The position numbers and the translations under genes were made by a program. A DNA stretch of 64,000 nt from Xestospongia bergquistia (Eukaryota > Porifera > Demospongiae > Haplosclerida > Petrosiidae): NCBI GenBank assembly GCA_963965975.1, contig OZ014412.1, positions 8,618,708 through 8,682,707 on the forward strand, read 5' to 3'. The notes beneath the pieces are model-generated. The model was not told where the DNA came from and ran no database searches. It saw nothing but the letters and a program-made list of their open reading frames with translations. Within the stretch, counting starts at the first letter, position 1, and every line of letters begins with the position of its first letter. Below, in pieces: positions 1-60,413 of this stretch.

Positions 1-154
1 TATCTTCAAATTGATGTTTAATCAAGTTACTCGGTAATTCAATCTAGTACTATCAACTGTAGATACTTTATCTACTGATCCTCCACCTGGTGGTCCCACA
101 ATTAGATTACCATCTCTACCATAGCAACATTCATTACCTGCTCCTTCATTAGTC
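1..154 (-). pseudogene. AMOP second-half exon, frameshifted, cut by window edge
   Basis: The reverse strand after a TTTGTAG acceptor (exon starts at 154) encodes the conserved AMOP second half, with [10 protein letters not shown] and [14 protein letters not shown]. Paralogous exons read through to a GTGAGT donor. Here one base is missing near position 34 (ctcggtaatt where others have ctcaagtaatt), so the frame breaks after TRLNY. No matching first AMOP half, TIG or IgGFc exon lies upstream, only intron-like relic. I call it a 5'-truncated pseudogene fragment; the rest is outside the window. Confidence 0.75.
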
Positions 155-1925
155 CTACAAATGTACATAATTATATTAATAATATAACATGTGTATATAA
201 TATAGTACACAGATCATTGTATAGTAGTTGTACAGCTATTTTTCAAATATAAGCTACATGTGAATACTATAATATATCAGTTTGTTATTATAGATTCATG
301 TGACTCATTAGTTATGTAGTAGTAAATAAGATACCTAAACAAATCTACAATGTATATATTCACATACTGGTTCCCTCATATAATTAGTTCATTGTCTACA
401 CTAATGACTTTAATTGTTTATAGCAGTATACAATTAAGTATCTATAACATAGATTCTAATTAAATTAAATTCACTACATGTAGTGAACTATTAATAGAAA
501 TACAATTTTTAGTATTATCATTATTTTATGAATGAACTATAATAATCAAATACATCAAATGATAACTGTATCATCATGTACATAAAGGTAACAGTTACCT
601 GATGTTATAAATTACCTTTTAACAATATTAGTGTAGAACTATTATACTAATAACATATTAACTTAAATGATGAACTACTACTATTAATAGTTTATAATAA
701 TAGTTTATTTCAAATTTGTAATGACATCAAGTTTTAAAAATTTGTAAGATAACTGCTATTATAAAGTATGTTACAGTAACATATTATCTCAAATTTACTC
801 CCAGTAGCTGATTGATGACCTTATATCTTCAATACTGATCCTCTTCAATTATATTTCATTCATTCTTTATAAACATACACTAAATATTTAGTTATTTGAC
901 AAGTGTACGTAGGAGGTGTTCAGGTAAGATAAACCACTATTATTGATGTCAATGACATTATTATAATAAATAGGTAAGAAATGTATGTTCAAGTAAGTTT
1001 GAAATCATATAAAATAGACATTTGTTGTTTTGTTCAGAGGATTTGTTGTATATTATAATACTGGTCCCTTTCCTCCTAAATTCTAAACATTAACTGTATG
1101 CAACAAAGATTGCAATGAGATTGAAGTTTGCAGCATAGCTCCTCATAAATACACTATTGTATTTTGTACTGGGGAATAAAGGGATGAGCAGTGATTATGA
1201 GTTACAAAACAAAGCTATCATAATTATAATGATTAATAGTTAGAGGATGAAAACTAAACCAAATAATTGAATCTTATGAACTTAACATTAACAAACTAAA
1301 TACCACTATCATTATACATGTAACTTTTACATGTATATAGCAATCACTTTATGTGGTAAAGTGTCACAATAATAATATATATTATAACAAATATTAGTAG
1401 TAGTTTTAAGGATTGTTTATAAAAAGTCAACTCTTATAGACTAGACACACACTAGCAAGTTCACCACAGAGTAAAATACAGCAGAGATTTTCTGCTCAGT
1501 AACATTTATAATATATAATGTAGTTTGTCTTCCTATTTCCCAATATATATCTTGGCTAACATGAGTAATCACAAAAGGTGTCTGCATTTCAAAACTAATA
1601 TTGAAGTACTAGTATTACAATAATATCACACTAAATGTAAAGTCTCCTCCTATACATAGCTGGTCAAATATATGCACAAAATTATATTATGAAATTATTT
1701 GCATATAATAATAACAATTGACCAAGCAAAGCAAAAACAAATACATTATATTTGAAATTTTATATTCAGAGCACACTTTAGTGACAACACATTATTGTCA
1801 AACACGGGATTTGTAGTTCCAGCAATTAAATTTTTTTTGAATGAACATCTTGAGGTAGTATCTATATAATAAAAACTAATGACTGTATTTATCAATGATA
1901 GTCCATGTAACATTAATACACCATC
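155..1925. other. Relic of the large AMOP intron and flank; no gene seen
   Basis: AT-rich non-coding DNA. It aligns by eye with 57228-59965 (minus the BED insertion there); both share blocks such as the one around taacagttacctgatg at about 590 and 58590. The part next to the AMOP exon resembles the long intron of the intact genes. Part of a segmental duplication. Confidence 0.6.
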
Positions 1926-2276
1926 ATTATCAATACCATATTGTAGACACCATTATCAATATAATATACCATATTGTAGACACCATTATCAATATAATAC
2001 ATACCATATTGTAGACACCATTATCAATATAATACATACCATATTGTAGATACCATTATCAATATAATACATACCATATTGTAGACAACATTATCAATAT
2101 AATATATACCATATTGTAGACACCATTATCAGTACAATACATACCATATTGTAGAAACCATTATCAACATAATACATACCATATTGTAGACACATTATCA
2201 GTACAATACATACCATATTGTAGACACCAATATCAATATAATACATACCATATTGTAGACACCATCAATACAATAC
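1926..2276. repeat. 35-bp minisatellite, about 10 degenerate copies
   Basis: Tandem unit of about 35 bp centred on ccatattgtagacaccatta followed by tcaatataatacat. Copies differ by substitutions and small indels. The same array occurs at 59971-60413 with about 12 much more uniform copies. All reading frames contain stops. Confidence 0.9.
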
Positions 2277-2734
2277 ATAATTTTAAGCTACAGCCTCTTT
2301 ATCCTAACCTCTGTATTGCCTTTGCACAATTTCTACAACAGTAGCTGTGCCCATTAAAATTAATTAAAATTTATTTTATGTTCAACTATAACACAGAATC
2401 TATTGGCAGATTTAGATATCTTAGCCGTTGAGAGTGGACTTTCTGAAACACTTAACTTTGATGACATCATTGTTCATTAAAAGGCCAGAAAAATGCACCT
2501 AACTTAACTTCTTTATTGAAGTAACATATATACATGTAATTTTTTAGGCAAATAGACATCATTGATTGTTACTGCCATTCACCATTTTATAAATATGTTG
2601 ACAACAATATGGGACCCCTTTAGAAAGTAGAGCCCTTGAGAAATATCTCTGGCTGCTAGCTGCCCCCTTCCCCTCTCATCGAGCCTGACTGTTGGAGACA
2701 ATAATAATGTTACTAGGTTTCTAACTAGTGATTA
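2277..2734. other. Duplicated non-coding spacer
   Basis: Matches 60414-60880 and, more weakly, 28265-28735 (shared cagcctctttatcctaacct, and blocks around ggcagatctagatatcttag). No open frame or RNA recognised. Confidence 0.5.
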
Positions 2735-2845
2735 AGTTACATATTGCAGCTAACAGGAAAATGAAGACTATCTTCAGTTTGATCTCTTTCTCTCCCTCAA
2801 TATTCTTCCAATATGGACAAACAAGTGTACTCTCATAAGCAAAGC
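2735..2845 (-). pseudogene. Relic promoter and signal-peptide exon lacking ATG
   Basis: The reverse strand keeps the family's promoter-proximal block TTTGTCCATATTGGA and a sequence parallel to the signal exon (KIVFIFLLAAIC), then a donor-like GTAACT and an intron ending CTCCAACAG. The initiator is CTG (2775-2777), an in-frame stop lies upstream, and the TATA box has become CTTATGAG. The IgGFc exon that should follow is absent. Sister relics lie at 28735-28840, 53785-53895 and 60880-60985. Confidence 0.65.
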
Positions 2846-2849
2846 AACA

Positions 2850-3680
2850 AATCAGTCAGTGCCTTAGAACCTTAATTTAAATTACAAGTACATTGATCAG
2901 CTATTAATGAGAAGACACATATGTTGAGATGACTAAAGGTACTCTCAATGGATGACAAAGAGTAACTTATGTTTTTCTTAGGTCTAGAATATCTTTCTAT
3001 ATTACCAGTTACCAATTCCATTGCTATGTGTTGCAATATAAATGGATTCCTTTCTGTCATAATGTACAGACATCTTATCATCATGACTTGAACTTAATGT
3101 GGACAAAACAACAAGTATCAAAAATATCTTTAAGCCTGTCATCAAAACAAGAGATTAACAAAATTTCGAATCCCCTTTTATCTAAACCATATTCACAATA
3201 CTTTATCAGATGAATACATGTGATGTGCAAGAATATTAAAACAATTTACAAAACATTATAATAATTTAGATATCTCATGACTCTTCACTCCACTCTGAAA
3301 GACATATGTATTTCTATGTGTGACCTTTCTTATTATCTATAAAAATTGCTCTCGATCTTTTTATATGTTCATATATAATGCAACTGGTATATATTGAACA
3401 TGCAATTTGTTGAGAACAGTTTACACTCTGTGTCAGCACAACTAACTATAATTACTGCTGTAACTGTCAAGAAGTAACATAAAATATGAAGAAATGATAT
3501 TACAATGATTGTTTATTCAAAAACTGAAGATAAATGAAGATACAGCACAAAAAATAGCAAATATCAAAGTTCTTAATTTAACTTGTAAATATGCAAAAAG
3601 CAATTATAATTAAGTACAAAGCAACAGTACAGTCTTTAAATGTAATGTATTGTTAATCACTTTTTGTCTAATCGTTTTCA
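2850..3680. other. Conserved 3' flank of family gene; no gene seen
   Basis: Non-coding DNA also found at about 29090-29850 and 53900-54630, downstream of other family genes. The AATAAA present at the same place in intact copies is lost here: a 3-nt difference near 3645 leaves AACAATACATT. Confidence 0.55.
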
Positions 3681-3682
3681 AA

Positions 3683-5485
3683 TTAAAGTTGATTACTCAT
3701 TTCAGGCTTCTCTAGATCTTTAGAGTCAAGAGACTTTTTAGTGGTCTTCTTTTTAAGTACCAGTACTACCACTAAAACTATTATCACTACAACAAGTAGT
3801 AATACTCCAAGACCTACTACAACTACAACAACAACACCAAGATTATTATCATCAGTTGATTTTTGTACTGTAGGAGCTAATACAATAATAAAATATGATA
3901 ACAACTAATATTTTCAACTATAATAACTAATAATTTATTATGTAAAAAAATTAATTCTGACTTCCTTGTGACTTCATCCTTACAATATTCTCTTATAAAT
4001 CCAGGTAAACAATGACAGTTATAATTCTTACCATGAGGTTGACATGTACCACCATTAGAAGGGTTAAAATTACTAGAGTTGGGTTGAAGGGCACCTATTA
4101 GTAACAATAAATAGAGATAAGATTATATGGAAAAACCTGTATTGATAATGTTTAGATTCATTCCTGTTAAGTATGTATATCCTTCTGCATTGAGAGAATG
4201 ATAGTATTTAGTTCCTCCATATCCAATTACACTAAGACCAGCAGTAATATCAGTATGATGTAAAACATGAGGTAGAGTGTCATTAAACTCATGAACTGTT
4301 CCATATCCTATAATGTCACCATTATTACCATGAATAGGTTTCCAGTCCCAGTTATAAGGTTTATCATCTAATAAAACATCAGTTGTGGTAGTTGTTGTAA
4401 TTTGAATGTAATGATGATCAAACCAGTCAATTAATGAAGTGTTCAGTGGTACATAGACAACTTTATTAATGTACTGTTCTATAGGAGGTATCACACTCAG
4501 GATTTCACGGAGGTATGAATATTTATATTTTGAGTATCCTCTATGACCTTCTGAAACAAGTTCAGATACAAGTATTGGCTTATCAGATTCAATAGTACAA
4601 TAGGTAACTGGATCAAAGTAAGGACTTATAAAGTTCCATTCACCAGGAGATGTCAAAAATGTGGATTTAATTAATGTATTGTTACAAGTTTGAGTGATAT
4701 TAGTTTCTCCTTCAGAGGCCACAATCTTTGTGCAGTGCTGCAGTGATGCTTCAGGAAATGGTACAAGGAGGAACTTTTTACCCCAAGTTACTGTTGGAGG
4801 GATCTGCTCTGTAACATAATCACAATATCCCGACCACCACAACAACCCATATTGTGACATCCCACCACCATAGTTGATCTGACACTATACCACACTCATG
4901 TCTACTAATAACTGTTAAAGGTTCATTTGAAATAATTCGAGTGCCAGTTAAATCATCTAAAGCTCCAATCAGAAGTGTTTGCATTAAATGTAGTGTAATG
5001 GTATAGGTATTGCCATCATTGATAATAATAGTTGGGTTGCTTGGATTTTGAGGGTCTGCTGGAACCTTTATCATCTCTGTAGGTACAATAGTTATAATAG
5101 TAAAAGAAACAGACTCTGGTCTCCCCACCAGCTATTTATTGATACCACATAATATTCATATCGTTGTAGTCCCATATTGATGTATGGATATGCTAAATAT
5201 TCAGCAATGAGGTCATAACTCACAGACATCACAACAACTGATATAGGAGTGTTGTCATCATTGGAATAGATATGAATTCCTTTGAATCGTTCTGAATAAT
5301 TTCCATGACGTGGTTCAACATTATCAGGTAGTATTACAATAGCAGGACTATCAACAGATACATTACAAGTGTAGTACCAACCTGTACTACTGTGGTTCCA
5401 CCCAATACCTAACTCTACTGTGAAGGTAACTGGTTGGACTTATAGTGTAGTAATGGTGAGTTCTCTTGTATAGTTCCAACTTGAA
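3683..5485 (-). pseudogene. Decayed short IgGFc-domain transmembrane gene
   Basis: Clearly homologous to the short gene at 61001-62980: IgGFc-binding domain (about 4135-5485), degenerate EGF exon (about 3960-4096) and transmembrane exon (3683-3876) with a valine/leucine-rich helix, KKKTTKK stop-transfer and complete tail. Disabling changes seen directly: a TAA in place of the Ser codon in TTLSVQPV (near 5450); a 19-nt deletion near 5099 relative to paralogues; an 8-nt deletion near 4855 in the Trp-rich loop; and replacement of promoter, signal exon and about the first 25 codons by DNA from the neighbouring AMOP/VWD relic (join near 5480). The EGF donor is GGAAGT instead of GTAAGT and the poly(A) signal is lost. 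Confidence 0.88.
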
Positions 5486-6187
5486 ATCAAGTAGTAATCA
5501 AACCACAATGGCAAACATGCTTGTTATCCATAAACCATATTCTATAATACTGTTAATATGACACATATTCACCAGGTATTGGAGGAGTGTAAGCTGAACT
5601 CTTTTCTTTGGCTACACAAGCTGAGAAGACAGTAGCATTTGCAACTCTTCCCAATGAAGTTTTAACTTCAATCATTCTTCCATGTAGTGTAAATGATTCA
5701 TCATTTGTCTCAATGAGAACAAACTCTCCCTTTCCATTAAACGTGTACTTGTGAAGATCAAGAGTCACAATATGTGGATCACCAATTATGATAGCTAATG
5801 AATGACAAATTATTATAAATTACACAAGAAATCAAGTATTAATCTTACAAATTGAAACCACACTGGCAATCATGCTTGTTATCCATGAACTATATTCTAT
5901 AATACTGTTAACATGATACATACTCACCAGGTATTGGAGGAGTGTAAGCTGTTCCATTATCTGAAGGACGTCTTTCATAGTAAATATTACAACTAGTTTG
6001 TGTTCCTTTACAACAGAAGATATATGGTAGGATATCTTCAATTTGATGTTTGATCAAGTTACTCAAGTAATTCAATCTAGTACTACCAACTGTAGATACT
6101 TTATCTACTGATCCTCCACCTGGTGGTCCCACAATTAGATTACCATCTCTACCATAGCAACATTCATTACCTGCTCCTTCATTAGTC
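5486..6187 (-). pseudogene. AMOP/VWD relic with chimeric VWD-AMOP exon
   Basis: Contains an intact AMOP second-half exon (5928-6187) but with a different acceptor context (TTGTACAG). The VWD exon starts at 5794 with the hallmark GDPHIVTLD and a Lys-Tyr-Thr-Phe-Asn-Gly stretch, then about 67 codons in it joins in frame to the last codons of an AMOP exon (AYTPPIPG), ending in a donor at 5572. The rest of the VWD and all later exons are gone; the following DNA runs directly into the decayed IgGFc exon at about 5485. Upstream AMOP, TIG and IgGFc exons are absent. It is a recombination product rather than a working gene. Confidence 0.8.
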
Positions 6188-9298: not shown

Positions 9299-9384
9299 GT
9301 TAATCACTGTTTGTCAAATTGTTCTGAAATTAAAGTTGATTACTCACTTCAGGCTTCTCTAGATCTTTAGAGTCAAGAGACATT

Positions 9385-12300
9385 TTAGTGGTCTTCTTTT
9401 TCAGCACCACTAGCACAATGAACACAGGATGGATTACAATTTACTATAAATGAGATAGAAGTCAGTAGAGTGAGCGAGTATTAATTACTTACTTGGTTTG
9501 GATAAATTAATTAGTTGTTCAAGTTCCTGTCCTCCTCGATATGTAGCCTCTCCAATCTCGATTCTTCCAGTAGTTGCTATATCAAACTTACAGAACACAT
9601 CGTCTCCACAAATATCACTAGCTTTTTTTTCCAGAGCAGTATCAGAAAAGGAAGGTTCATACACAGGAATGAATGATGGAAAATAGTATGTAGACCAGTG
9701 TTGTCCAAAATGATATGTAAACAAACTCTCACTAGGATTATCAATGATCCCTAAATGAAATTTAGAACTATTGGAAATTCCTAACTAACATACACTTACA
9801 TGTAATTCCAAACTTTTCATGTATCTCTTGTATAGTAGAGTTTAATGATAATATCATTCCATTTCCTCTTGGAGTAAGGTCATCCGTCTTATCACCATTA
9901 TATGTACCCATTAATCCTTGAGTTTTGCTTTGATAACTCTCAGGGAGGCTAACAATAAGGACAGATATAAAACCATTTTCTTCTTGTACTTGTAGAAATG
10001 CACCACTTGAGAAGGTAGCACTGAATGTGGTGTTACCAGATTTAATGATGGTAACATTTTCAAAGTCTTGAATTTTTAATTCATCAAAGTTAGCTCTTTC
10101 TCCATCAACAAGAGTAATCACAGAAGTGATATTGTCAACTGTTTCTATTTCAAACTGAACTGTACTTGAACTCTCTTCTTTGGCTACACAAGCTGAGAAG
10201 ACAGTAGCATCTGCAACACTTCCCAATGAAGTTTTAACTTCAATCATTCTTCCTTGTAGTGTAAATGATTGATCATTTGTCTCAATGAGAACAAACTCTC
10301 CCTTTCCATTAAATGTGTACTTGTGAAGATCAAGAGTCACAATATGTGGATCACCGATTATGACAGCTAATGAATGACAAATTATTATAAATTACACAAG
10401 AAATCAAGTATTAATCTTACAAACTGAAACCACACTTGTAGGAATGCTGGTTATCCATGAACTATATTCTATAATACTGTTAATATGATACATACTCACC
10501 AGGTATTGGAGGAGTGTAAGCTGTTCCATTATCTGAAGGACGTCTTTCATAGTAAATATTACAACTAGTTCGTGTTCCTTTACAACAGAAGATATATGGT
10601 AGGATATCTTCAAATTGATGTTTGATCAAGTTACTCAAGTAATTTAATCTAGTACTACCAACTGTAGATACTTTATCTACTGATCCTCCACCTGGTGGTC
10701 CCACAATTAGAATACCATCTCTACCATAGCAACATTCATTACCTGCTCCTTCATTAGTCCTACAAATGTACATAATTATATCAATAATATAACATGTGTA
10801 TATAATATAGTACACAGATCATTGTATTGTAGCTGTATAGCTATTTTTCAAATATAAGCTACATGTGAATACTATAATATATCAGTTTGTTATTATAGAT
10901 TAGTGTGACTCATTAGTTATGTAGTAGTAAATAAGATATATAAACAGATCTATAATGTATATACTCACATAATGGTTTCCTCATCTATTTAGTTCATCAT
11001 CTATACTAATGACTTTATCATTGTTTATTAAATTCTAAAATTAAACATAGATTCTAATTAAATTAAATTCCTTATGTGGCTGTATACTAGTATATTAAAT
11101 GTATAAACATTACATCTAATGATTATTCTTAGTAAGGACTTGCATATACCTAGTTGAAGTGTGTCAACAAGTCTATTCATACACATCTCTAGTAAATCCA
11201 TGTTTCCAAAACTCAATAAATGTATTCAACAACCTGCTAATATACAGTACCATATATAAAGTCATATTCATGTATGAAATTCATATAATAAATGTATATG
11301 TTTAAGTGATATATCACTTTTAGCAGTACTATAGAGTGTAATAGCAATATATAAGTGAATTACATACTAGGAATCAAACCATTTTAAATACAGCAACTAC
11401 TCTACATAGACTGTTAAATTATATAATATTACTAGTTATATCTACCTACATTATATGCTGCTTGAATAAACAGTTTAGTAGTACAGAATAGAATACAGGA
11501 TATCTACTATTCTACATCATATTTGTCCAGGTTGGATACCTAAAGAAATTTTTATGTTGTCCATAATCCCACAGTCTCATATGATATGAAATGGACTGTG
11601 ACATTTCATGCTGAATTATTCTGTATATTTATTATATACAATGTTATTTAACACTAACCTCAAAACACCATATTACTTAGACTGTTAACTTATATAATAT
11701 TACTAGCTATATCTACCTACACCATATGCTGCTTGAATAAACAATTTACTAGAAGACAGAATATCTACTGTTGTATATATTAACTGTTGACTTACATTAC
11801 TATCCACATCATATGTTGTTTGAATAAACGATTTATTAGTACAGAATACTCAGACCATGTGATGTGGTTAGAGATTGCTTATTTAAAAAGTTATTTTATT
11901 ACTAATTTCACCCACTTTGTATAATATATGGTAAACCACTTAACCAGAATATACAGGCAGTTTTCTATGAAGTACCTCTAGTAGTTATAAAACTATTTAG
12001 TTTATTCATTAATATTCGGTGGAATATAGTCTAGCTAAGAAAGCTAAGAAGCTTAATATTAATGTACAATTGTAGTCATAAACTAAATGATTATATGATA
12101 CATATCCTATTAAAACTGGACAATTGTTTTAACCAAGTTATTACTAAATACAATGCCACTCTAAATAGAATGCCTATCATAAATAGCTAAATCTTGTGAA
12201 TTACAAACTAAATCTATTGTATTTGTTACTTAATATTTGGAGTTATGCATATCATTATATTAACAAATTTATATGCAATGTTTATTTAACACTAACCACA

Positions 12301-15300
12301 ATACACCATATTAATTGTATTACTGAGAGAATGTACAATATTAAAACTAATTAGTCTTATTAAAATTTTCCTTATGTATAAAAAGGTTATTCTACTCAGA
12401 GAGTAGCTTTGGTAATTAGAGAGTAATAACTTAATTTGTTGAAATAACCAATCAGTTTTAACATGACATTTAATCACTCAGAGCAAAATAGTTACTATGT
12501 TACTGTTACTAATTAATAATACTATAGTTCATGAATAGATCAATTTACCTTGTAATAGTCCTTTGATGAAAACATTTAAAAGCTTTAGGATGAAAGAATT
12601 CTATCAGTTTTGTATCTCTATCTTCAAGAAGTCCACTGTTCACAGTTCTAGCTTGACCAATAGTGGGTGGGCATGGGAAATCAGAACGCACTTTTTCTAA
12701 TAATTGTTGACCAATACTAGATGGTTCACTGATAGACCATGCTTTACATGCAGACCATAGTTTAATACCACTAGATTGTTTATTGGTTGATACTATCCAT
12801 ATTATATCTGTCCATTGAGTGACTGTTCCTTCTGCTTTATCAAATAATGTTAGATTTTGCAAATTACTACCTTTAGCTTCAATGGAAATAATAGCAGCAT
12901 AAACAGATTGATTACTGGAGTGAGATATAATAGGTACTGTGACAGTAGCTGACCCAGTATTAGCTACATCACTGTCTAGTGTGGTCACTTGTTCTAATGT
13001 AGAGACATCATTAGATATCTGGAAGATGTGTAACTTAATGTCAACAAGTAAATCTGAGGGAGTAATGACATTTTTCAATGGCTTAGTTAGAGATACTGTT
13101 GACCACATTAATGCAATATTATCTCCTACATGTATAAGTAGTTTATTAGAGCTAACATAAACATGATTATCATCTTCAATGCGTCCTACAGATGAGATGA
13201 ATCAAAACATTACTTAAAGTTAAAATCATTACTTACGTGAATAAAATGATGATTCCCTTTCATATTTAAATCCATTATGAAACAGTTGTACATTCACTCT
13301 TCCTATCTTTCTTAGTCTAGGTGTAACACATAATATTTGTCTTTGACTAACATAGACACCATCCACTTTAATACCATCAAATAAACAATACAACTTATCA
13401 GTAGATTTAATATAAGTGGGTCCAGTTAGTATTACTGGTACACCACCTAATATATGACCGTACCATGGATTGAGTTGAAGAGCACCTATTAGTAACAATA
13501 ATAAGAGATAATTAGATTAGATTTATTTGTCTTACCTGTATTGATAATGTTTAGATTCATTCCTGTTAAGTATGTATATCCTTCTGCACTGAAATAATAG
13601 TCTTTCATACTTCCATATCCAATTATACTAAGACCAGCAGTAATATCAGTATGATGTAAAACATGAGGTAGAGTGTCATCAAATTCATGAACTGTTCCAT
13701 ATCCTATAATGTCACCATTATAACCATGAATAGGTTCCCAGTCCCAGTCATAAGGTTTATCATCTAATAGAACATCAGTTGTATTAGTTGTTGCTATTTG
13801 AATGTAATGATGATCAAACCAGTCAATCAATGAAGTGTTCAGTGGTACATAGACCACTTCATTAATGTACTGTTCTATAGGAGGTATCACGCTCAGGGTT
13901 TCATGTACGAATGAAAAGTTATAATAGGAGTCTCTTACATGACCTTCTGAAACAAGTTGAGATACAAGTATTGGTCTATCAGATTCAATGGTACAATAGG
14001 TAACTGGATCAATGTAAGTATTTGTAAAGTTCCAGTCACCAGGAAATGTCATAAATGTGCTATTAATTAACGTATTGTTACAAGTTTGAGTGATAGTAGT
14101 TTCTCCTTCAGAGGCCACAATCTTTGTATAGTGCTGCAGTGATGCTTCACGAAATGGTACAAGGAGGAACTTTTTACCCCAAGTCACTGTAGGAGGGATC
14201 TGCTCTGTAACATAATCACAAAACCACCACCACCACCACCACCGGTCATCTTGTGAGAAGAACACATTCCACCACCATTGTGCATTTGATACTACACCAC
14301 ACTCATGTCCACTGATAACTGATAAAGGTTTATTTGAAATAATTTGAGTACCAGTTAAATCATTTACAGCTCCAATCAGAAGTGTTTGCATCAAATGTAG
14401 TGTAATGGTATAGGTATTGCCAGCATTGATAATAATAGTTGGGTTGCTTGGATTTTGAGGGTCTTCTGGAACCACTATCATCTGTGTAGGTACAATAGTT
14501 ATAGTAGTGTTGTCCTCATTTCCAACTAAAAGAAACAGACTCTGACCTCCCCATAAGCTATCTAAAGATACCACGTAATATTCATATCGTTGTAGTCCCA
14601 TATTGATGTATGGATATGCTAAGTATTCATCATTGAGGTCATAGTCCACAGACATCACAACAACTGATATAGGAGTGTTGTCATCATTAGAATATATATG
14701 AATTCCTTTGAATCGTTCTGAATAATTTCCATGACGTGGTTCAACATTATCAGGTAGTATTACAAGAGCAGGACTATCAACAGATACATTACCAGTGTAG
14801 TACCAACCTGTACTATTGTGGTTCCACCCAATACCTAACTCTACTGTGAAGTTAACTGGTTGGATTGATAGTGTAGTAATGGTGAGTTCTCTTGTATAGT
14901 ACCAGTATGACCTTAGTATACCAATATAGAAATGAACTCCATATGTAGAAAGCTGACCATTGGTTATCTTAGGAAAATACACAGATATAACTGTTGAAGA
15001 AAATAATGTTATATTACTTGGTTACTAATTTTTAATTCTGACTTACTTGTCACTTCATTCTTACAAGATTCTCCTATAAATCCAGGTAAACAATGACAGC
15101 TATAACTCCTACCATGAGGTTGACATGTACCACCATTACAAGGGTTAGGATCACAGGGTGTATGAACTAATAACAATTAGTAAATTTAGTTTACTCATAA
15201 TAACAGTGAATCCTTACCAGTAGTATTACAACTGTCTCCTTCATATCCTTCTTCACAAGCACACATATTAGCATCCACACAAGAACCATGAACACATGAT

Positions 15301-18300
15301 GCATTACATGTAACTAATGTTCAATGTTGAAAAGAAGCCATAAATAATTAACTTACTTCTTTGCTTTTGTTCACAAAATTCTCCAGTAAAGCCAGGTAGA
15401 CATGTACAGATGTAATTTCCAGCATGATATTGACATGTACCATTATTGTTACAAACATTTTCATCACATGTTGAGTAAACTATAATATTAATACAAGTAG
15501 TTTATCTATTGAATTATGTAACTGTATCATTCATTACCTATGATATCACAAGTGTCTCCTTTATAGCCTTCTCCACAAGCACACACATTAGTATCCACAC
15601 AAGCACCATGAACACAGGATGGATTACAACTTACTATAAATGAGAGAGAAGAAGTAGAGTGAGTAAGTGTTAATTACTTACTTGGTTTGGATAAATTAAC
15701 TAGTTGTTTAAGTTCCTGTCCTCCTCGATATGTAGCCTCTCCAATCTTGATTCTTCCAGTAGTTGCTATATCAAACTTACAGAACACATCGTCTCCACAA
15801 ATATCACTAGCTTTTTTTTCCAGAGCAGTATCAGAAAAGGAAGGTTCATACACAGGAATGAATGATGGAAAATAGTATGTAGACCAGTGTTGTCCAAAAT
15901 GATAAGTAAACAAACTCTCACTAGGATTATCAATGATCCCTAAATGAAATTTAGAACTATTGGAAATTTCTAACTAGCATACACTTACATGTAATTCCAA
16001 ACTTTTCATGTATCTCTTGTATAGTAGAGTTTAATGATAATATCATTCCATTTCCCCTTGGAGTAAAGTCATCTGTCTTATTACCATTATATGTACCCAT
16101 TAATCCTTGAGTTTTGCTTTGATAACTCTCAGGGAGGCTAACAATAAGGACAGATATAAAACCATTTTGTTCTTGTACTTGTAGAAATGCACCACTTGAG
16201 AATGTAGCACTGAGTGTATTGTTACCAGATTTAATGATGGTAACATTTTCAAAGTATTGAATTTTTAATTCATCAAAGTTAGCTCTTTCTCCATCAATAA
16301 GAGTAATCACAGAAGTGATATTGTCAACTGTTTCTATTTCAAACTGAACTGTACTTGAACTCTCTTCTTTGGCTACACAAGCTGAGAAGACAGTAGCATC
16401 TGCAACACTTCCCAATGAAGTTTTAACTTCAATCATTCTTCCTTGTAGTGTAAATGATTCATCATTTGTCTCAATGAGAACAAACTCTCCCTTTCCATTA
16501 AATGTGTACTTGTGAAGATCAAGAGTCACAATATGTGGATCACCAATTATGATAGCTAACGAATGACAAATTATAAATTACACAAGAAATCAAGTATTAA
16601 TCTTACAAATTGAAACCACACTGGCAAACATTGTTATCCATGAACTATATTCTACAATACTGTTAATATGATACATACTCACCAGGTATTGGAGGATTAT
16701 AAGCTGTTCCATTATCTGAAGGACGTCTTTCATAGTAAATATTACAACTAGTTAGTGTTCCTTTACAACAGAAGATATATGGTAGGATATCTTCAAATTG
16801 ATGGCTGATCAAGTTACTCAAGTAATTCAATCTAGTACTACCAACTGTAGATACTTTATCTACTGATCCTCCACCTGGTGGTCCCACAATTAGAATACCA
16901 TCTCTACCATAGCAACATTCATTACCTGCTCCTTCATTAGTCCTACAAATGTACATAATTATATCAATAATATAACATGTGTATATAATATAGTACACAG
17001 ATCATTGTATTGTAGCTGTATAGCTATTTTTCAAATATAAGCTACATGTGAATACTATAATATATCAGTTTGTTATTATAGATTAGTGTGACTCATTAGT
17101 TATGTAGTAGTAAATAAGATATATAAACAGATCTATAATGTATATACTCACATAATGGTTTCCTCATCTATTTAGTTCATCATCTATACTAATGACTTTA
17201 TCATTGTTTATTAAATTCTAAAATTAAACATAGATTCTAATTAAATTAAATTCCTTATGTGGCTGTATACTAGTATATTAAATGTATAAACATTACATCT
17301 AATGATTATTCTTAGTAAGGACTTGCATATACCTAGTTGAAGTGTGTCAACAAGTCTATTCATACACATCTCTAGTAAATCCATGTTTCCAAAACTCAAT
17401 AAATGTATTCAAAAACCTGCTAATATACAGTACCATATATAAAGTCATATTCATGTATGAAATTCATATAATGAATGTATATGTTTAAGTGATATATCAC
17501 TTTTAGCAGTACTATAGAGTGTAATAGCAGTAACAATGAACTACATGCTAAAAATCAAACCATTTTACATACAGCAACTACTCTACATAGACTGTTAACT
17601 TATATAATATTACTAGCTATATCTACCTACATCATATGTTGCTTGAATAAACAATTTACTAGAAGACAGGATATCTACTGTTGTATATATTAACTGTTGA
17701 CTTACATTACTATCCACATCATATGTTGTTTGAATAAACGATTTATTAGTACAGAATATTCAGACCATGTGATGTGGTTAGAGATTGCTTATTATTTAAA
17801 AAGTTATTTTATTATTAATTTCACCCACTTTGTATAATATATGGTAAACCACTTAACCAGAATATACAGGCAGTTTCCTATGAAGTACCTCTAGTAGTTA
17901 CAAAACTATTTAGTTTATTCATTAATATTCGGTGGAATATTGTCTAGCTAAGAAAGCTAAGAAGCTTAATATTAATGTACAATTGTAGTCATAAACTAAA
18001 TGATTATATGATACATATCCTATTAAAACTGGACAATTGTTTTAACCAAGTTATTACTAAATACAATGCCACTCTAAGTAGAATGCCTATCATAAATAGC
18101 TAAATCTTGTGAATTACAAACTAATTTTTATTAACAAATTTATATGCAATGTTTATTTAACACTAACCACAATACACCATATTAATTGTATTACTGAGAG
18201 AATGTACAATATTAAAACTAATTAGTCTTATTAAAATTTTCCTTATGTATAAAAAGGTTATTCTACTCAGAGAGTAGCTTTGGTAATTAGAGAGTAATAA

Positions 18301-20952
18301 CTTAATTTGTTGAAATAACCAATCAGTTTTAACATGACATTTAATCACTCAGAGCAAAATAGTTACTATGTTACTGTTACTAATTAATAATACTATAGTT
18401 CATGAATAGATCAATTTACCTTGTAATAGTCCTTTGATGAAAACATTTAAAAGCTTTAGGATGAAAGAATTCTATCAGTTTTGTATCTCTATCTTCAAGA
18501 AGTCCACTGTTCACAGTTCTAGCTTGACCAATAGTGGGTGGGCATGGGAAATCAGAACGCACTTTTTCTAATAGTTGTTGACCAATACTAGATGGTTCAT
18601 TGATAGACCATGTTTTACATGCAGACCATAGTTTAATACCACTAGATTGTTTATTGGTTGATACTATCCATATTATATCTGTCCATTGAGTGACTGTTCC
18701 TTCTGCTTTATCAAATAATGTTAGATTTTGCAAATTACTACCTTTAGCTTCAATGGAAATAATAGCAGCATAAACAGATTGATTACTGGAGTGAGATATA
18801 ATAGGTACTGTGACAGTAGCTGACCCAGTATTAGCTACATCACTGTCTAGTGTGGTCACTTGTTCTAATGTAGAGACATTATTGGATATCTGGAAGATGT
18901 GTAACTTAATGTCAACAAGTAAATCTGAGGGAGTAATGACATTTTTCAATGGCTTAGTTAGAGATACTGTTGACCACATTAATGCAATATTATCTCCTAC
19001 ATGTATAAGTAGTTTATTAGAGCTAACATAAACATGATTATCATCTTCAATGCGTCCTACAGATGAGATGAATCAAAACATTACTTAAAGTTAAAATCAT
19101 TACTTACGTGAATAAAATGATGATTCCCTTTCATATTTAAATCCATTATGAAACAGTTGTACATTCACTCTTCCTATCTTTCTTAGTCTAGGTGTAACAC
19201 ATAATACTTGTCTTTGACTAACATAGACACCATCCACTTTAATACCATCAAATAAACAATACAACTTATCAGTAGATTTAATATAAGTGGGTCCAGTTAG
19301 TATTACTGGCACACCACCTAATATATGACCGTACCATGGATTGAGTTGAAGAGCACCTATTAGTAAAAATAATAAGAGATAATTAGATTAGATTTATTTG
19401 TCTTACCTGTATTGATAATGTTTAGATTCATTCCTGTTAAGTATGTATATCCTTCTGCACTGAAATAATAGTCTTTCATACTTCCATATCCAATTATACT
19501 AAGACCAGCAGTAATATCAGTATGATGTAAAACATGAGGTAGAGTGTCATCAAATTCATGAACTGTTCCATATCCTATAATGTCACCATTATAACCATGA
19601 ATAGGTTCCCAGTCCCAGTCATAAGGTTTATCATCTAATAGAACATCAGTTGTATTAGTTGTTGCTATTTGAATGTAATGATGATCAAACCAGTCAATCA
19701 ATGAAGTGTTCAGTGGTACATAGACCACTTCATTAATGTACTGTTCTATAGGAGGTATCACGCTCAGGGTTTCATGTACGAATGAAAAGTTATAATAGGA
19801 GTCTCTTACATGACCTTCTGAAACAAGTTGAGATACAAGTATTGGTTTATCAGATTCAATGGTACAATAGGTAACTGGATCAATGTAAGTATTTGTAAAG
19901 TTCCAGTCACCAGGAAATGTCATAAATGTGCTATTAATTAACGTATTGTTACAAGTTTGAGTGATAGTAGTTTCTCCTTCAGAGGCCACAATCTTTGTAT
20001 AGTGCTGCAGTGATGCTTCACGAAATGGTACAAGGAGGAACTTTTTACCCCAAGTCACTGTAGGAGGGATCTGCTCTGTAACATAATCACAAAACCACCA
20101 CCACCACCACCACCGGTCATCTTGTGAGAAGAACACATTCCACCACCATTGTGCATTTGATACTACACCACACTCATGTCCACTGATAACTGATAAAGGT
20201 TTATTTGAAATAATTTGAGTACCAGTTAAATCATTTACAGCTCCAATCAGAAGTGTTTGCATCAAATGTAGTGTAATGGTATAGGTATTGCCAGCATTGA
20301 TAATAATAGTTGGGTTGCTTGGATTTTGAGGGTCTTCTGGAACCACTATCATCTGTGTAGGTACAATAGTTATAGTAGTGTTGTCCTCATTTCCAACTAA
20401 AAGAAACAGACTCTGACCTCCCCATAAGCTATCTAAAGATACCACGTAATATTCATATCGTTGTAGTCCCATATTGATGTATGGATATGCTAAGTATTCA
20501 GCATTGTGGTCATAGTCCACAGACATCACAACAACTGATATAGGAGTGTTGTCATCATTAGAATATATATGAATTCCTTTGAATCGTTCTGAATAATTTC
20601 CATGACGTGGTTCAACATTATGAGGTAGTATTACAATAGCAGGACTATTAACAGATACATTACCAGTGTAGTACCAACCTGTACTATTGTGGTTCCACCC
20701 AATACCTAACTCTACTGTGAAGGTAACTGGTTGGACTGATAATGTAGTTATAGTGAGTTCTCTTGTATAGTGCCAAAATGACCTCAGTATACTAACATAG
20801 AAATGAACTCCATATGTAGAAAGCTGACCATTGGTTATCTTAGAAGAATATAAAGAAATCACTGTTGGAGAAAATAATGTTATATCACTTGATTACTAGT
20901 TAGTTATCAACTTACAGACTGAAGCTAATAGAACAGTGTAGACTAGCTTCAT
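9385..20952 (-). CDS. Fused double IgGFc/TIG/AMOP/VWD/EGF protein, no TM anchor
   Basis: Nineteen exons keep one frame (about 2460 aa): 20916-20952, 19407-20861, 19108-19356, 18420-19056, 16683-16942, 15989-16555, 15682-15939, 15538-15633, 15357-15479, 15218-15313, 15047-15166, then 13536-14990, 13237-13485, 12549-13185, 10500-10759, 9800-10366, 9493-9750 and 9385-9443 (plus the first-copy order as listed). The first copy gives signal peptide [12 protein letters not shown], IgGFc-binding domain, TIG, AMOP (two exons), VWD (GDPHIVTLD), CGDD module and four EGFs. After EGF4 the donor at 15046 opens a 56-nt intron whose 3' half is the family's intron 1, joining a second IgGFc exon in the same phase 1. 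The second copy repeats TIG to CGDD. Its EGF1 is joined out of frame to the old transmembrane exon, ending in [12 protein letters not shown]. Likely an extracellular recognition or adhesion protein. It could instead be transcribed as two units, but the second copy has no promoter or signal exon. Confidence 0.75.
14222..14245 (-). repeat. Coding CCA/TGG triplet repeat (six Trp)
   Basis: Plus-strand (CCA)n inside the second IgGFc exon of the fused gene. On the coding strand it is (TGG)6, giving [14 protein letters not shown]. Same tract in the first copy at 20094-20114. Confidence 0.9.
20094..20116 (-). repeat. Coding CCA/TGG triplet repeat (six Trp), first copy
   Basis: Same hexa-tryptophan tract as at 14222, in the variable loop just before the conserved [16 protein letters not shown] motif. 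Confidence 0.9.
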
Positions 20953-21010: not shown

Positions 21011-21499
21011 AGTTTTTCAATGGCTTCAGTGATATCACTAAACCACATTACAGGATAACATACTTAACAGTACATTAGTAATAATGTACTCATAGTAAGT
21101 TATTAATATAGTGCTAATATAATGTTGATTGTTTATCAAAATAAATATTACAATAACATTATATAAGTGGTCTAGAGTAATTTATAAGTTGATTTTTGAC
21201 AAATAATAAACTGTAAATCAATTTTAGTTGATTATTCAAATGATAAATAACAAAATTCAAATCAATCTACATAAAGTCTAATATAATAGAACTAACTACA
21301 ATATATAGTGTACTGGTATTATATGTCAAAGTACATGTTAACTAGTTTGATTATATAGTCCTCTCCCTCAATAGAGTAACTAAAATCTAATTGTGTTCTT
21401 GTGGTTCATTTTGAATTATAGTTGAGAAGATCAATACGAATGACTATACAATGTATATATGTATATATTGTGTTTTTTAATAACTTCTCTCTAGTAACT

Positions 21500-26683: not shown

Positions 26684-27031
26684 ACCATTTAGCCATTTTT
26701 TTACGGGATCAACACATTCCTTACCTCCAATGATAGCAAAGATTTCAATTATTCAAGACAATACTAAATAAAGTGTTCCCTTATTTTGCCAACAACCAGT
26801 TAAATGAAGTCAATCAGTTTCCATTTTAACTCTCAAATCCTGAAAGTCTTTTAACTGCTTTGACCTTCCTTTATTTTAAGTTGTAAAGTGTTACTTCCAT
26901 AGTAACCAACAAAACAAAAATTTAATTCTCTTGTGAATTACGTTAAATTAAATATGATTATAGTAGACATTCTAACATCAAGACAATGGTTTAGTGATTG
27001 TTCTATAAACTGTTTGTCTCTTTGCATCTCT

Positions 27032-27595
27032 TCTAAGAGAGTTTGAACACTTACAAGTTCTCCAGATTACTCATCTGTTCTAAGAGAGTTTAAACACTTA
27101 CAAGTTCACCAGACTACTCATCTGTTCTAAGAGAGCTTGAACACTTACAAGTTCACTAGACTACTCATCTGTTCTAAGAGAGCTTGAACACTTACAAGTT
27201 CACTAGACTACTCATCTGTTCTAAGAGAGCTTGAACACTTACAAGTTCACTAGACTATTCATCTGTTCTAAGAGAGCTTGAACATTTATAAGTTCACCAA
27301 ACTACTCATCTGTTCTAAGAGAGCTTGAACACTTACAAGTTCACTAGACTACTCATCTGTTCTAAGAGAGTTTAAACACTTACAAGTTCACCAGACTACT
27401 CATCTGTTCTAAGAGAGCTTGAACACTTACAAGTTCACTAGACTACTCATCTGTTCTAAGAGAGCTTGAACACTTACAAGTTCACTAGACTATTCATCTG
27501 TTCTAAGAGAGCTTGAACATTTATAAGTTCACCAAACTACTCATCTGTTCTAAGAGAGCTTGAACATTTACAAGTTAACTAGACTTTCCCTTGAG
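27032..27595. repeat. 47-bp minisatellite, 12 copies
   Basis: Unit tctaagagagcttgaacact followed by tacaagttcactagactactcatctgt. Copies start at 27032, 27079, 27126 and so on to 27549, spacing exactly 47. Variant copies recur in order (copies 2, 3, 5, 6 resemble 8, 9, 10, 11), indicating higher-order duplication. Confidence 0.95.
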
Positions 27596-28734
27596 AAACT
27601 AAGACAGAACTACATATAATTAACAATAATTTACCGCCATTCATCGTTACTTTAGTGTTTTACTTTGAATGTCTCTTAAGACTGAAACAAACAGGAACAA
27701 GACACATCAATAATTAGCTCCACCCATCTCAGTCATTATAATTAATTATTCATAAGTACCTGTTGAAAGACAATTAATCAGATTTGTGCACATGTACTAA
27801 AATCATTATTTTTGTAAACTGTTTGAAAAAAACTCAATCTTAAGTACATTTTATGTACATTGACTAAAAGTTTTTCCTCTTCATTAGATTTTACCTGCTC
27901 ATATAATGAGTAATAGAGCTAATATAGGTAGTAATTAAGCTACATCTGGTACATCAGATACAGCTGACACTCTTCAATGTCTATGTGAGGTTTTTACAAG
28001 CTTTTAGATGTTGTTATTTCTGAACTAACAGTTAGGTATACTATGAAGCAAGAAAGTCAGATCAATAACCATTTCTCATAAATTTCTTTCGCAGTACATA
28101 GTCTTGACAGGTAAAGTATATATTACACGCTAGTAAAAGTAGAGAGCTTTATACAAACTTACAGCAATGATGTTTTAGAGGATCTTGTTCAACAATTAAA
28201 AATATTAAAGCAATTTATATGTTAAATTTTGGTAAAGAGTCTTTGCTACATCTTAATCTCCTCTTCATAAATTTAGTTGTAAACTACAGTCTCTTTTTCC
28301 TAAACTATGTATTACCTTATGTATTTTCACACAATTCCTACAACAGTGGCTGAGGCTATTAAAATTGTAATTAACATTTATTTATGTTCAACCATGACAA
28401 AGGATCTGTTGGCAGATCTAGATATCTTAGCCATGTGCATTTAGAATGACTTTCTGAAACACTTAACTTTAATGACATTATTAACATCTTTACTCATTAA
28501 AAGGCCAGAAAACCATACCAAACTTAACTTCTTTGTTAAAGTAATATATATACATGTAATTCTTGAGATAAATAGTATTTATTGATTGTTACTGTCATTA
28601 ATTAATTTAGTTAATAACATAATAGGGCCCCTCTAGAAAGCAAGGCTCCAGAGAATATTGGCTGTCCCCTCCCTCTAGGTAGACCTGACTGTTGGAAACA
28701 ATAATAACGCTAATAGATTTCATACTTGTGATCA
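27596..28734. other. Duplicated spacer; no gene seen
   Basis: 27590-27780 matches 53370-53580 (gagaaactaagacagaacta; aattagctccacccatctca). 28265-28735 matches 2290-2735. Non-coding. Confidence 0.5.
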
Positions 28735-29852: not shown

Positions 29853-31648
29853 TTAAAGTTGATTACTCATTTTAGGCATCTCTAGATCTTGAGAGTCAAG
29901 AGACTTTTTAGTAGTCTTCTTTTTCAGCACCAGTACTACCACTAAAACTATTATCACTATGACAAGTAGTAGTACTCCAAGACCTACTACAACTCCAACA
30001 ATTACACCAAGATTGTTATCATCGGCTGATTCTTGTACTGTAGGATCTAATACAATATAAATTATGAGAACAATTAAATAAATAGAGATAAGATTATTGG
30101 ACAAACCTGTATTGTTAATGTTTAGATTCATTCCTGTTAAGTATGTATATCCTTGTGGATTTGCAAAAAAATAATAGCCTTTCATACTTCCATATCCAAT
30201 TACACTAAGACCAGCAGTAATATCAGTATGATGTAAAACATGAGGTAGAGTGTCATCAAACTCATGAACTGTTCCGTATCCTATAATGTCACTATTATTA
30301 CCATGAATAGGCTGCCAGTCCCAGTTATAAGATTTATCATCTAATAGAACATCAGTTGTGTCAGTTGTTGTGATTTGAATGTAATGATGATCATACGAAT
30401 TAGTCAATGAAATGTTCAGTGGTACATAGACCACTTTGTTAATGTACTGTTTAATCGGAGGTATCACCATTAGGATTTCATGTAAGAATGAATAGTTATA
30501 ATAGGAGTTTCTTACATGACCTTCTGAAACAAGTTGAGATACAAGTATTGGCTTATCAGATTCAATTGTACAATACGTAACTGGATCAATGTAATTATAG
30601 TTAAGGTTCCAGTCTCCAGGAAAATTTAAAAATATAGAATTAATTAATTCATTGTTACAAGTTTGAGTGATATTATTTTCTCCTTCAGAGACCACAATCT
30701 TTGTATAGTACTGCCTAATCCTTGAAAAGTGATGCATTGATGATTCAGGAAATGGTACAAGGAGGAACTGCTTACCCCAAGTCACTGTTGGAGGGATCTG
30801 TTCCATAACATAATCACATTTCCTATACCATCATGTTGGGTACGTAAACAACCCCCCATTTTTTGATACTATTCCACACTCATGTCCACTGATAACTGTT
30901 AAAGGTTTATTTGAAATAATTTGAGTACCAGTTAAATCATCTTCAGCTCCAATGAGAAGTGTTTGCATCAAATGTAGCGTAATGGTATAGTTACTGCTAG
31001 CATCAATAGTAACATTTGAATTGCTTGCAGTTTGAGGGTCTTCTGGAACCTCTATCATCTGTGTAGGTACAATAGTTATAATAGTGTTGTCCTCATTTCC
31101 AACTAAAAGAAACAGACTCTGGGGTCCCTCAAAACTATTTATTGATACCACATAGTATTCATATTGTTGTAGTCCCATATTGATGTATGGATATGCTAAG
31201 TATTCAGCATTGAATTGATAACTCACAGACATCACAACAACTGATATAGGAGTGTTGTCATCATTAGAATAGATATGAATTCCTTTGAATCGTTCTGAAT
31301 AATCTTCATTACGTGGTTCAACATTATGAGGTAGTATTACATTAACTGGACTATAAACAGATACCTCACCAGTTTTGCACCAACTTGTACTCCACCCATT
31401 ACCTAACTCTACTGTGAAGGTAACTGGTTGGACTGATAATGTAGTAATGGTGAGTTCTCTTCTATAGGTCCAATATGACCTCAGTATACCAACATAGAAA
31501 TGAACTCCATATGTAGAAAGCTGACCATTGGTTATCTTAGGAAAATATACAGAAATCACTGTTGAAGAAAACAATGTTACATCACTTGGTTACTAATTAT
31601 GATCAACTTACAGACTGAAGCTAATAGAACAGTGTAGACTAGCTTCAT
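29853..31648 (-). pseudogene. Short IgGFc transmembrane gene with one in-frame TGA
   Basis: Exons 31612-31648 (signal peptide), 30107-31558 (IgGFc-binding domain) and 29853-30046 (transmembrane exon) total 1683 nt in one frame. Promoter, splice sites, transmembrane helix, KKKTTKKS tail and AATAAA are all intact. The only lesion is TGA at 30831-30833 in the variable loop between ECGIVSKNG and [16 protein letters not shown]. The frame is the same on both sides, so this is a substitution, not a frameshift. The 60-nt last intron is itself open, so retention would still be coding. Function as for the family: probable cell-surface recognition or adhesion. It could be a young pseudogene, an assembly error or a readthrough case. 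Confidence 0.8.
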
Positions 31649-36352: not shown

Positions 36353-36496
36353 CAGCGTGTATTACATGTATATGTACATGTACTTTTCATTGCTCATTTT
36401 CTCTGGCATTACTACAATACATTATGTCCTCAAAAACTCCAGTTGGTCATTAAATCACACATAAATATAAACAGTAATAATTATTTTGTGCTCAAA

Positions 36497-36976
36497 AGTG
36501 CAATGTACAGTGTGTACTATGTACAGTGTGTACTATGTACAGTGTGTACTATGTACAGTGTGTACTATGTACAGTGTGTACTATGTACAGTGTGTATTAT
36601 GTACAATGTGTGTACTATGTACAGTGTGTACTATGTACAGTGTGTATTATGTACAATGTGTGTATTATGTACAGTGTGTACTATGTACAGTGTGTACTAT
36701 GTACAGTGTGTACTATGTACAGTGTGTACTATGTACAATGTGTGTACTATGTACAGTGTGTACTATGTACAGTGTGTATTATGTACAGTGTGTACTATGT
36801 ACAGTGTGTACTATATACAGTATGTACTATGTACAGTGTGTACTGTGTACAGTGTGTACTATATACAGTATGTATTATGTACAGTGTGTACTGTGTACAG
36901 TGTGTACTATATACAGTATGTACTATGTACAGTGTGTACTGTGTACAGTGTGTACTATATACAGTATGTACTGTGT
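36497..36976. repeat. 16-bp minisatellite, about 30 copies
   Basis: Unit tgtgtactatgtacag, each containing the short palindrome TGTAC/GTACA. Copies after about 36800 follow a 48-bp higher-order pattern with tatatacagtatg variants. Because 16 is not a multiple of 3 and no phase has a stop, long open frames run in all plus frames and in one minus frame; I do not regard these as genes. Confidence 0.95.
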
Positions 36977-36979
36977 ATG

Positions 36980-37436
36980 TGTTGTATATATAGTTGACCA
37001 TTATCTTAATACAAGAATTGATCTTCCTAAGGAAATGTCAACTAAAATCATCAGAAATTCATTCAAGTGTACAATATACAGTAGACTATCAATCTAGTAT
37101 TCTTTTAACACTGATAATACCATACTATGAACTATTAAATATTGTGGTTATCTTATTAACTGAAATGTTTTCATTAACTTGGATACTATTGAAGATGATC
37201 TTATAATCCCTGGAACTCCTGGTTCACCATTGTTGCATGTGTGTAAAAAAGCATAAATTAGTAACAGAAAATATGAAGAAATGATATTGCAATGCATATT
37301 TATTTAAAAATTTAGGATAAATGAAGATGCAGCACAAAAAATAGCAAATTTCACAGCTCCTTATTGAACTTGTAAATATGCAAAAGGCAATTATAATTAA
37401 GTACAAAACAACGCTGCACTCTTTAAATCTAATGTA
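36980..37436. other. Junction of minisatellite and gene 3' flank
   Basis: 36980-37230 unique-looking, nothing recognised. 37240-37436 is the usual 3' flank of the family (matches 3490-3650, 9125-9292). Confidence 0.45.
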
Positions 37437-57589: not shown

Positions 57590-57958
57590 CTAAAGAAGAT
57601 AATAAATTGTAGTGATGTGCTTGTATTGTGGATCTTCCTTATTATACTTCTTTGCTTTTTGCATGACCTGAAGAATTGTTTGCTGCCCCTTAAAATTACA
57701 CCATGACTTTTTGGAATTTGCCAATGTTGACTCATTTTTTCTTGTAATTTCCTTTTCTTTTTGTAACAACTCCTCATATTCCTGTCCATGTTTGCTTTTC
57801 AGGTGAAATTTCAAGTTTGTACTGAACTTTCCTTTGAAAGTAGTCTCATAGTGTTTACCATTTACGTCAACTTGGCACACAGTCTTTCCTAGAGTCACAT
57901 CATACTTAAAATAGTCCCAAGCTGGGCTGGTTTTTGGGCTTCCATGTTGTACTGCCAT
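57590..57958 (-). CDS. BED-type zinc-finger protein (122 aa), transposase-like N-terminus
   Basis: ATG at 57958, stop at 57590. It has the BED pattern: aromatic SPAWDYFKYD, Cys in TVCQVDVNG, then STNLKFHLKSKHGQEY with the two His. The usual second Cys (CxxC) is Asp here, so zinc binding may be impaired. A basic/acidic helix follows (ELLQKEKEITRKNE) and no dimerisation or catalytic domain. BED fingers bind DNA in hAT transposases and ZBED proteins. Likely a transposon remnant. Confidence 0.65.
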   Translation of the reverse strand: MAVQHGSPKTSPAWDYFKYDVTLGKTVCQVDVNGKHYETTFKGKFSTNLKFHLKSKHGQEYEELLQKEKEITRKNESTLANSKKSWCNFKGQQTILQVMQKAKKYNKEDPQYKHITTIYYLL

Positions 57959-58024
57959 CTTGATTAGAATGCCAGATACTGTGTGTCACATGGCACCCAG
58001 CTGCTTGCAATGTGACATACAGTA

Positions 58025-59970: not shown

Positions 59971-60413
59971 ACACCATCATTATCAATATAATACATACCA
60001 TATTGTAGACACCATTATCAATATAATACATACCATATTGTAGACACCATTATCAATATAATACATACCATATTGTAGACACCATTATCAATATAATACA
60101 TACCATATTGTAGACACCATTATCAATATAATACATACCATATTGTAGACACCATTATCAATATAATACATACAATATTGTAGACACTATTATCAATATA
60201 ATACATACAATATTGTAGACACCATTATCAATATAATACATACCATATTGTAGACACCATTATCAATATAATGCATACCATATTGTAGACACCATTATCA
60301 ATATAATACATACCATATTGTAGACACCATTATCAATATAATACATACCATATTGTAGACACCATTATCAATATAATACATACCATATTGTAGACACCAT
60401 CAATACAATACAT
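59971..60413. repeat. 35-bp minisatellite, about 12 uniform copies
   Basis: Same unit as 1926-2276. gtagacac recurs every 35 bp from 60005 to 60390 with very few substitutions. Confidence 0.95.

Follow-up and report, generated by a model that had tools for sequence, protein, structure and literature searches.

A 64,000-nucleotide (nt) window of the Xestospongia bergquistia genome (C2:8618708-8682707; the assembly comprises 146.46 Mb in 21 contigs) contains on its minus strand 18 exons in which two near-identical ectodomain copies, an upper and a lower one, are read as a single frame. It is proposed, with modest confidence, that a tail-to-head join in a tandem array created one 18-exon gene with a predicted secreted two-ectodomain product. 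The upper copy, supplying the promoter region, the signal exon and the ectodomain through the fourth EGF exon (EGF4), would have been fused to a lower copy entered from within its intron 1; as the two broken introns share phase 1 and neither has lost its own splice signal, the two would be spliced as one gene. In the lower copy, a further small rearrangement would have fused the EGF1 exon to the exon of the transmembrane (TM) segment and shifted the frame, and the product would be a secreted protein of 2460 residues with two IgGFc-TIG-AMOP-VWD-C8 ectodomains separated by four EGF domains. We infer transcription and splicing of this gene, and secretion, cleavage and function of its product, from the sequence.

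The gene was rebuilt from splice borders and occupies positions 20952..9385 of the window, with 7383 nt of coding sequence giving 2460 codons and a single stop at the very end, and with AG/GT at every internal exon border. All exon junctions are phase 1 except the exon 4 to 5 junction of each half, which is phase 2. The coordinates, the number of exons, the frame to a stop at 9385 and the phase 1 junctions on both sides of the fusion, as given in an initial annotation of this DNA, all hold in this exon model; its proposal of a two-ectodomain frame behind one promoter region and one signal exon is supported by the model and by a search for promoter and signal matches. Retention of the frame across the fusion is weak evidence by itself, because nearly all introns of the family are phase 1. 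Chance matching is not at issue, since the exons of the lower half match those of the upper half at 92-99%. The features of the gene are as follows.

21011..21199, minus strand: family upstream (promoter-region) sequence, the sole one serving both halves (matches at many copies, none at window positions 1-21010)
20916..20952, minus strand: exon 1, signal peptide, with a phase 1 donor (splice borders; signal region upstream of 18/19 complete IgGFc exons)
19407..20861, minus strand: exon 2, the upper IgGFc_binding exon, PF17517 (splice borders, Pfam)
19356-19108 and 19056-18420, minus strand: exons 3-4, upper TIG and first part of AMOP (splice borders, Pfam)
15682..16942, minus strand: exons 5-7, upper AMOP end, VWD with GDPH, and MUC4-type C8-3 (splice borders, Pfam, motif)
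15047..15633, minus strand: exons 8-11, the four EGF exons of the upper half (splice borders, exon mapping, Pfam)
15166-15047, minus strand: exon 11, EGF4, the last exon of the upper half
14991..15046, minus strand: composite 56-nt intron, EGF-TM donor half and intron 1 acceptor half (breakpoint about 15027-15031)
13536..14990, minus strand: exon 12, the lower IgGFc_binding exon, without a signal exon or promoter region of its own (splice borders, Pfam)
12549..13485, minus strand: exons 13-14, lower TIG and first part of AMOP (splice borders, Pfam)
9493..10759, minus strand: exons 15-17, lower AMOP end, VWD with GDPH, and C8-3 (splice borders, Pfam, motif)
9385..9443, minus strand: exon 18, start of EGF1 continuing out of frame into TM-exon sequence, with the stop at 9385 (splice borders, exon mapping)
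9330..9412, minus strand: last part of the TM/cytoplasmic-tail exon (positions 113-195 of its 195), not in frame with exon 18 (exon mapping)

The first breakpoint lies in the intron between EGF4 and the second IgGFc exon. The 56 nt described earlier between the EGF4 donor (starting at 15046) and the exon at 14990 are present (gaps between adjacent EGF matches in the family are 36-60), and the stretch between the halves matches neither the promoter region nor the signal exon of the upper copy; the initial annotation had likewise placed neither there. This intron has both parental halves: it opens with the first 18-20 nt of the EGF-TM intron and closes with the final 36-37 nt of intron 1 (89.7% identity over 39 nt between the acceptor part, 15030-14992, and the intron 1 3' end), and both native splice signals are kept. 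Joining of the intron after EGF4 with intron 1 is thereby borne out, and the arrangement is that of a gene fusion made in a tandem array by joining intron to intron, each half of the composite coming from a different intron and the frame being kept. The longest word common to the parental introns is 9 nt and lies away from the joint (five EGF-TM introns and eight intron 1 copies, all pairs compared), and the sharing at the joint itself is about 1 nt, or by eye at most about 4 with a mismatch. Since the parental introns share so little sequence, and hardly any at the joint, end joining is the better fit and is the origin to which the joint points. A homologous unequal crossover was rejected, there being no extended homology at the breakpoint; the unequal crossover put forward earlier thus survives as an intron-intron join making a two-ectodomain frame and fails as a homologous exchange.

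Among the 58 listed genomic matches to 14900-15300 (best 40 of 54 candidates scored), the joint is spanned by the self match alone. The copies are near-identical, as would suit a misassembly in which two of them were put together. An overlap-based misjoin depends on shared sequence, however, and the longest word that the two introns have in common is 9 nt, with no common word where they meet; 97 sites and some indels distinguish the halves, neither being a plain repeat of the other; and the genome is assembled in 21 contigs, with no undetermined base (N) within the 200 kb of the array. Such an error is therefore very improbable.

A second breakpoint, absent from the initial annotation, was found at about 9412, where the EGF1 exon of the lower copy runs into the final part of the TM exon. 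Exon 18 is made up of the first part of EGF1 and the last 83 of the 195 nt of the TM exon, with the junction in or near the short shared words GTGCT and GTGG (by eye). This junction shifts the frame, so that the stop at 9385 is a frameshift stop, and a KKKTTK-type tail lies out of frame behind it. The lower copy is without EGF2-4 and without the start of the TM exon, and the 2460-residue product has no TM segment in frame: over 19-residue windows its mean hydropathy peaks at 1.68, at the signal peptide, and the TM of a sister copy reaches 3.84. The term receptor-like was not carried over for this reason, and a product with a signal peptide and no anchor is predicted to be secreted.

Because there is one promoter region and the phases are compatible, the locus would most likely yield a single spliced transcript that ends in the 3' sequence belonging to the lower copy, which has an AATAAA near 9300. 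The protein encoded by that transcript could end differently. Retention of the composite intron would yield a secreted single-ectodomain form, the frame from EGF4 into this intron meeting a stop before 14990 (by eye), and read-through splicing might reach the TM exon of the next unit (3875-3683), which has an AG acceptor at 3875 in a family whose EGF joints are phase 1. With a 3' sequence of its own in the lower copy, and a splice more than 5 kb beyond it being needed, these other ends are improbable.

The upper and lower copies are sisters among nine copies, with support of 100/100, and differ at 57/3462 exon positions and 37/1799 intron positions. Their longest run of agreeing family-variable sites is 137, a length reached in 0/20,000 shuffles, and the longest such run of the upper copy with any of the seven others is 21. 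Identity between the halves is uneven: in 7 of 30 comparison windows another copy is closer to the upper or lower copy than these are to each other (2/11 in the IgGFc region, the first 300 columns; 0/7 in TIG-AMOP; 5/12 from the end of intron 4 to EGF1). This pattern fits gene conversion, by which the middle of the halves looks to have been homogenised.

The same product might have had another origin, namely a tandem duplication of one gene's ectodomain, from intron 1 to the EGF4-TM intron, whose differing ends were later overwritten by conversion. The sister relationship of the halves among the nine copies is as expected from such an event, and a gene elsewhere in the genome (L029, described below) contains such repeats, and its two joints are identical, as internal duplication predicts. 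Against it stand the 7 of 30 comparison windows in which another copy is closer, located within the first 300 nt and on the side that runs from exon 5 to EGF1, and conversion of the middle region between two older neighbours needs fewer tracts. We put this origin a little short of an even chance. The history of the halves is consistent both with a join of two sister copies and with a join of one copy with its own duplicate; the two genes of the initial annotation stand as sister halves joined in one frame, and a single-gene duplication fits as well, despite the windows just mentioned. Two alleles in tandem were rejected, the upper copy being without a 3' end and the lower copy without a 5' end and further deleted. 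The fusion by a tail-to-head join is probably young.

No internal stop occurs in the lower half. The upper and lower copies differ by 0 indels in 3462 exon nt and 8 in 1799 intron nt (p 1.9e-4 by length, in a test that covers both lineages together and ignores base composition). Private changes of the lower copy are nonsynonymous to synonymous as 5:7, the lowest ratio of the nine copies (13:4 in the upper copy and 227:117 in the other seven pooled), and the probability of so few nonsynonymous changes under random change is 0.007-0.020 (kappa 1-3). The ratio of nonsynonymous to synonymous divergence (dN/dS) is 0.54 between upper and lower and 0.39 to 0.94 in the other 35 pairs. By these measures the lower half gives no sign of decay, at a divergence too small to prove function.

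Several observations weigh against a working fusion gene. The lower copy does not differ significantly from the eight other copies in its private changes (240:121 in these; Fisher p 0.12), and the integrity test of the lower half is weak, as the changes are few and conversion from the upper copy could keep the frame open. A frameshifted, anchorless end is also expected of a broken gene, and broken units stand nearby, in the form of a promoterless next unit and of 3 complete IgGFc exons with stops among the 19 of the array. The gene might thus be a non-functional chimaera that lost the upper TM exon and the lower promoter, had its frame shifted, and retains an open frame only through recency. 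The lost anchor, the out-of-frame tail and the stops in 3 of 19 IgGFc exons would agree with this, and at so low a divergence (57/3462 exon nt), with about 4-5% of random coding changes creating a stop, few stops are expected yet. The absence of exon indels as against 8 in introns, the low 5:7 ratio and the preservation of both splice signals in the composite intron argue the other way, and we regard the chimaera as unlikely. A plain pseudogene was not taken as the best reading, since both halves are free of internal stops and of exon indels relative to each other; it remains a serious rival.

The tandem array was mapped by exon type over 200 kb, C2:8575001-8775000 (loci L009-L028). A full-length gene of the family comprises a signal exon, IgGFc, TIG, AMOP (two exons), VWD, C8-3, 4-9 EGF exons and a TM exon; a shorter class has the signal, IgGFc, at most one EGF-like exon and TM. 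Exons 2-7 are open with correct splice borders in all seven other full-length copies, and a TM-exon match lies behind five of them; none is listed for g-23386 and g-35404 with the one DNA query used, which a diverged exon could escape. Among 19 complete IgGFc exons (eight partial matches excluded), 16 are open and 3 have stops, and a signal-region match lies directly upstream of all but one, the exception being the lower half of the fusion. Genome-wide there are at least 132 IgGFc_binding matches, scored among 213 candidates, and the superfamily is very large in this genome.

Other units of the array show further rearrangements. The next unit downstream of the fusion gene (3683-6187) has an AMOP-end exon, part of VWD and then an IgGFc exon without its first 85 nt; it has no promoter or signal-exon match, and the partial IgGFc exon has 10 stops in its best single frame. 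At 63322-63819 a short gene is preceded by an AMOP-end exon and the first 105 nt of VWD running straight into the promoter region, an arrangement that recurs at window-relative 67741, 73039, 106361 and 112378. The VWD end point is identical in these five short-gene units, which we read as an older tail-to-head join amplified with the array. A short-type unit at 29853-31589 has an in-frame stop in its IgGFc exon and an open TM exon. The window also holds a frame at 57590-57985 that resembles a BED-type zinc finger of a hAT-like transposon, and tandem repeats at 1854-2298 and 59883-60537 (35 nt, with a common unit), 26931-27679 (47 nt) and 36471-37051 (16 nt).

A similar join is present elsewhere in the genome. 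At L029 (C1:14398801-14403900), positions 91-4981 read as a signal exon, three alternating pairs of IgGFc and EGF exons and a TM-like exon, all phase 1, and the 1469 positions covered, as far as the donor of the TM-like exon, are free of stops; the three IgGFc exons are Pfam matches, and the EGF, signal and TM parts were assigned by eye. At both inner joints an EGF intron is united with the end of intron 1 of L029, whose terminal sequence the inner EGF introns share. Of 32 matches to the joint sequence, two contain the whole joint and agree fully over 261 nt, and 30 cover one side only. L029 resembles the fusion gene in having one signal exon followed by in-frame IgGFc/EGF-like repeats across phase 1 introns. 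It differs in its three short IgGFc-EGF units and its kept TM-like exon, and no AMOP or VWD exon was noticed in the stretch read. L029 reads as an independent gene made by the same kind of join; ectodomain multiplication by such joins is therefore not unique to the fusion gene, and the fusion is correspondingly less surprising.

Repeated IgGFc exons were seen at further loci. L031 (C7:1031501-1036500), read as frames, has an Ig-IgGFc unit in near-identical tandem copies followed by a long Ser/Thr-rich frame and resembles a mucin with repeated IgGFc heads. IgGFc exon pairs occur in L030 and L032 (C13) and L033 (C1), read as frames or sequence. Eight matches to the L029 intron 1/IgGFc start lie at C1:16278992-16361825, about 11 kb apart with one gap of 16 kb; seven of them score equally, and this is perhaps another regular tandem array.

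The fusion gene is instructive as to how genes can be built within an array, with the breakpoints, likely conversion tracts and the unjoined family all side by side. It is probably a young example of how an animal multidomain protein may double a whole ectodomain in one step through phase 1 introns: such a join can give a protein two recognition parts, and one further small event can convert a membrane-bound form into one predicted to be secreted. The independent triple gene L029 in the same genome makes recurrence of the joining testable. A bolder and rather doubtful idea is that the array acts as a workshop, where membrane receptors with a single ectodomain acquire two or three heads through repeated end joining in phase 1 introns, the outcome here being a secreted, doubly GDPH-cleavable and bivalent protein. 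If so, the roughly 5.9-kb near-identical halves would let ectodomain number vary between individuals by recombination, and this variation would be a source of individual-specific recognition or mucus proteins.

Comparison with known proteins rests on the domain content. Above the Pfam cut-offs, IgGFc_binding (151 and 150.2 bits in the two halves, cut-off 25.6), TIG, VWD and C8-3_MUC4 were found in both halves and EGF in the upper half. For AMOP the cut-off is exceeded in the lower half and, when exons 4-5 are taken alone, in the upper half as well; a scan of the entire upper half does not list it. GDPH is present in both VWD domains (residues 884 and 2171) and in 9/9 copies examined. MUC4 carries NIDO, and FCGBP carries an IgGFc-binding domain and has the unit order VWD-C8-TIL; the Pfam lists of the halves contain no TIL and no NIDO. 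A scan of viral contigs for VWD proteins confirmed 0 of 4 pattern matches. In a literature search for this architecture, in sources outside subscription journals seen in part, no report of the fusion gene was found; a passage in PMC8242945 names IgGFc-binding among other domains of Halichondria panicea receptors.

The fusion gene resembles the MUC4/SUSD2 type, with AMOP followed by VWD with GDPH and then MUC4-type C8-3, together with EGFs and, in most intact sisters, a TM exon. It departs from that type in its N-terminal IgGFc_binding and TIG, its doubled ectodomain and its lost C-terminal TM anchor, the TM exon being cut and out of frame. SUSD2 is described, in PMC6696261, as a transmembrane protein cut at GDPH with the fragments held by disulfides, a serine protease being suggested for the cleavage. 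With FCGBP, a secreted mucus protein, the fusion gene shares the IgGFc-binding domain and a GDPH-bearing VWD, and the best PDB match of the exon 5-8 stretch with VWD is 8rde (FCGBP). According to PMC10880436, FCGBP has 13 VWD domains, its GDPH-type sites undergo autocatalytic cleavage, and a cleaved domain resists proteases better. The fusion gene does not form such an array of many VWD units, having one VWD match per half, and unlike FCGBP it adds AMOP, TIG and EGF. By analogy with FCGBP and SUSD2, each GDPH would be cleaved and the pieces held together, and the outcome would be a soluble, two-headed adhesion or mucus-type protein replacing a membrane receptor.

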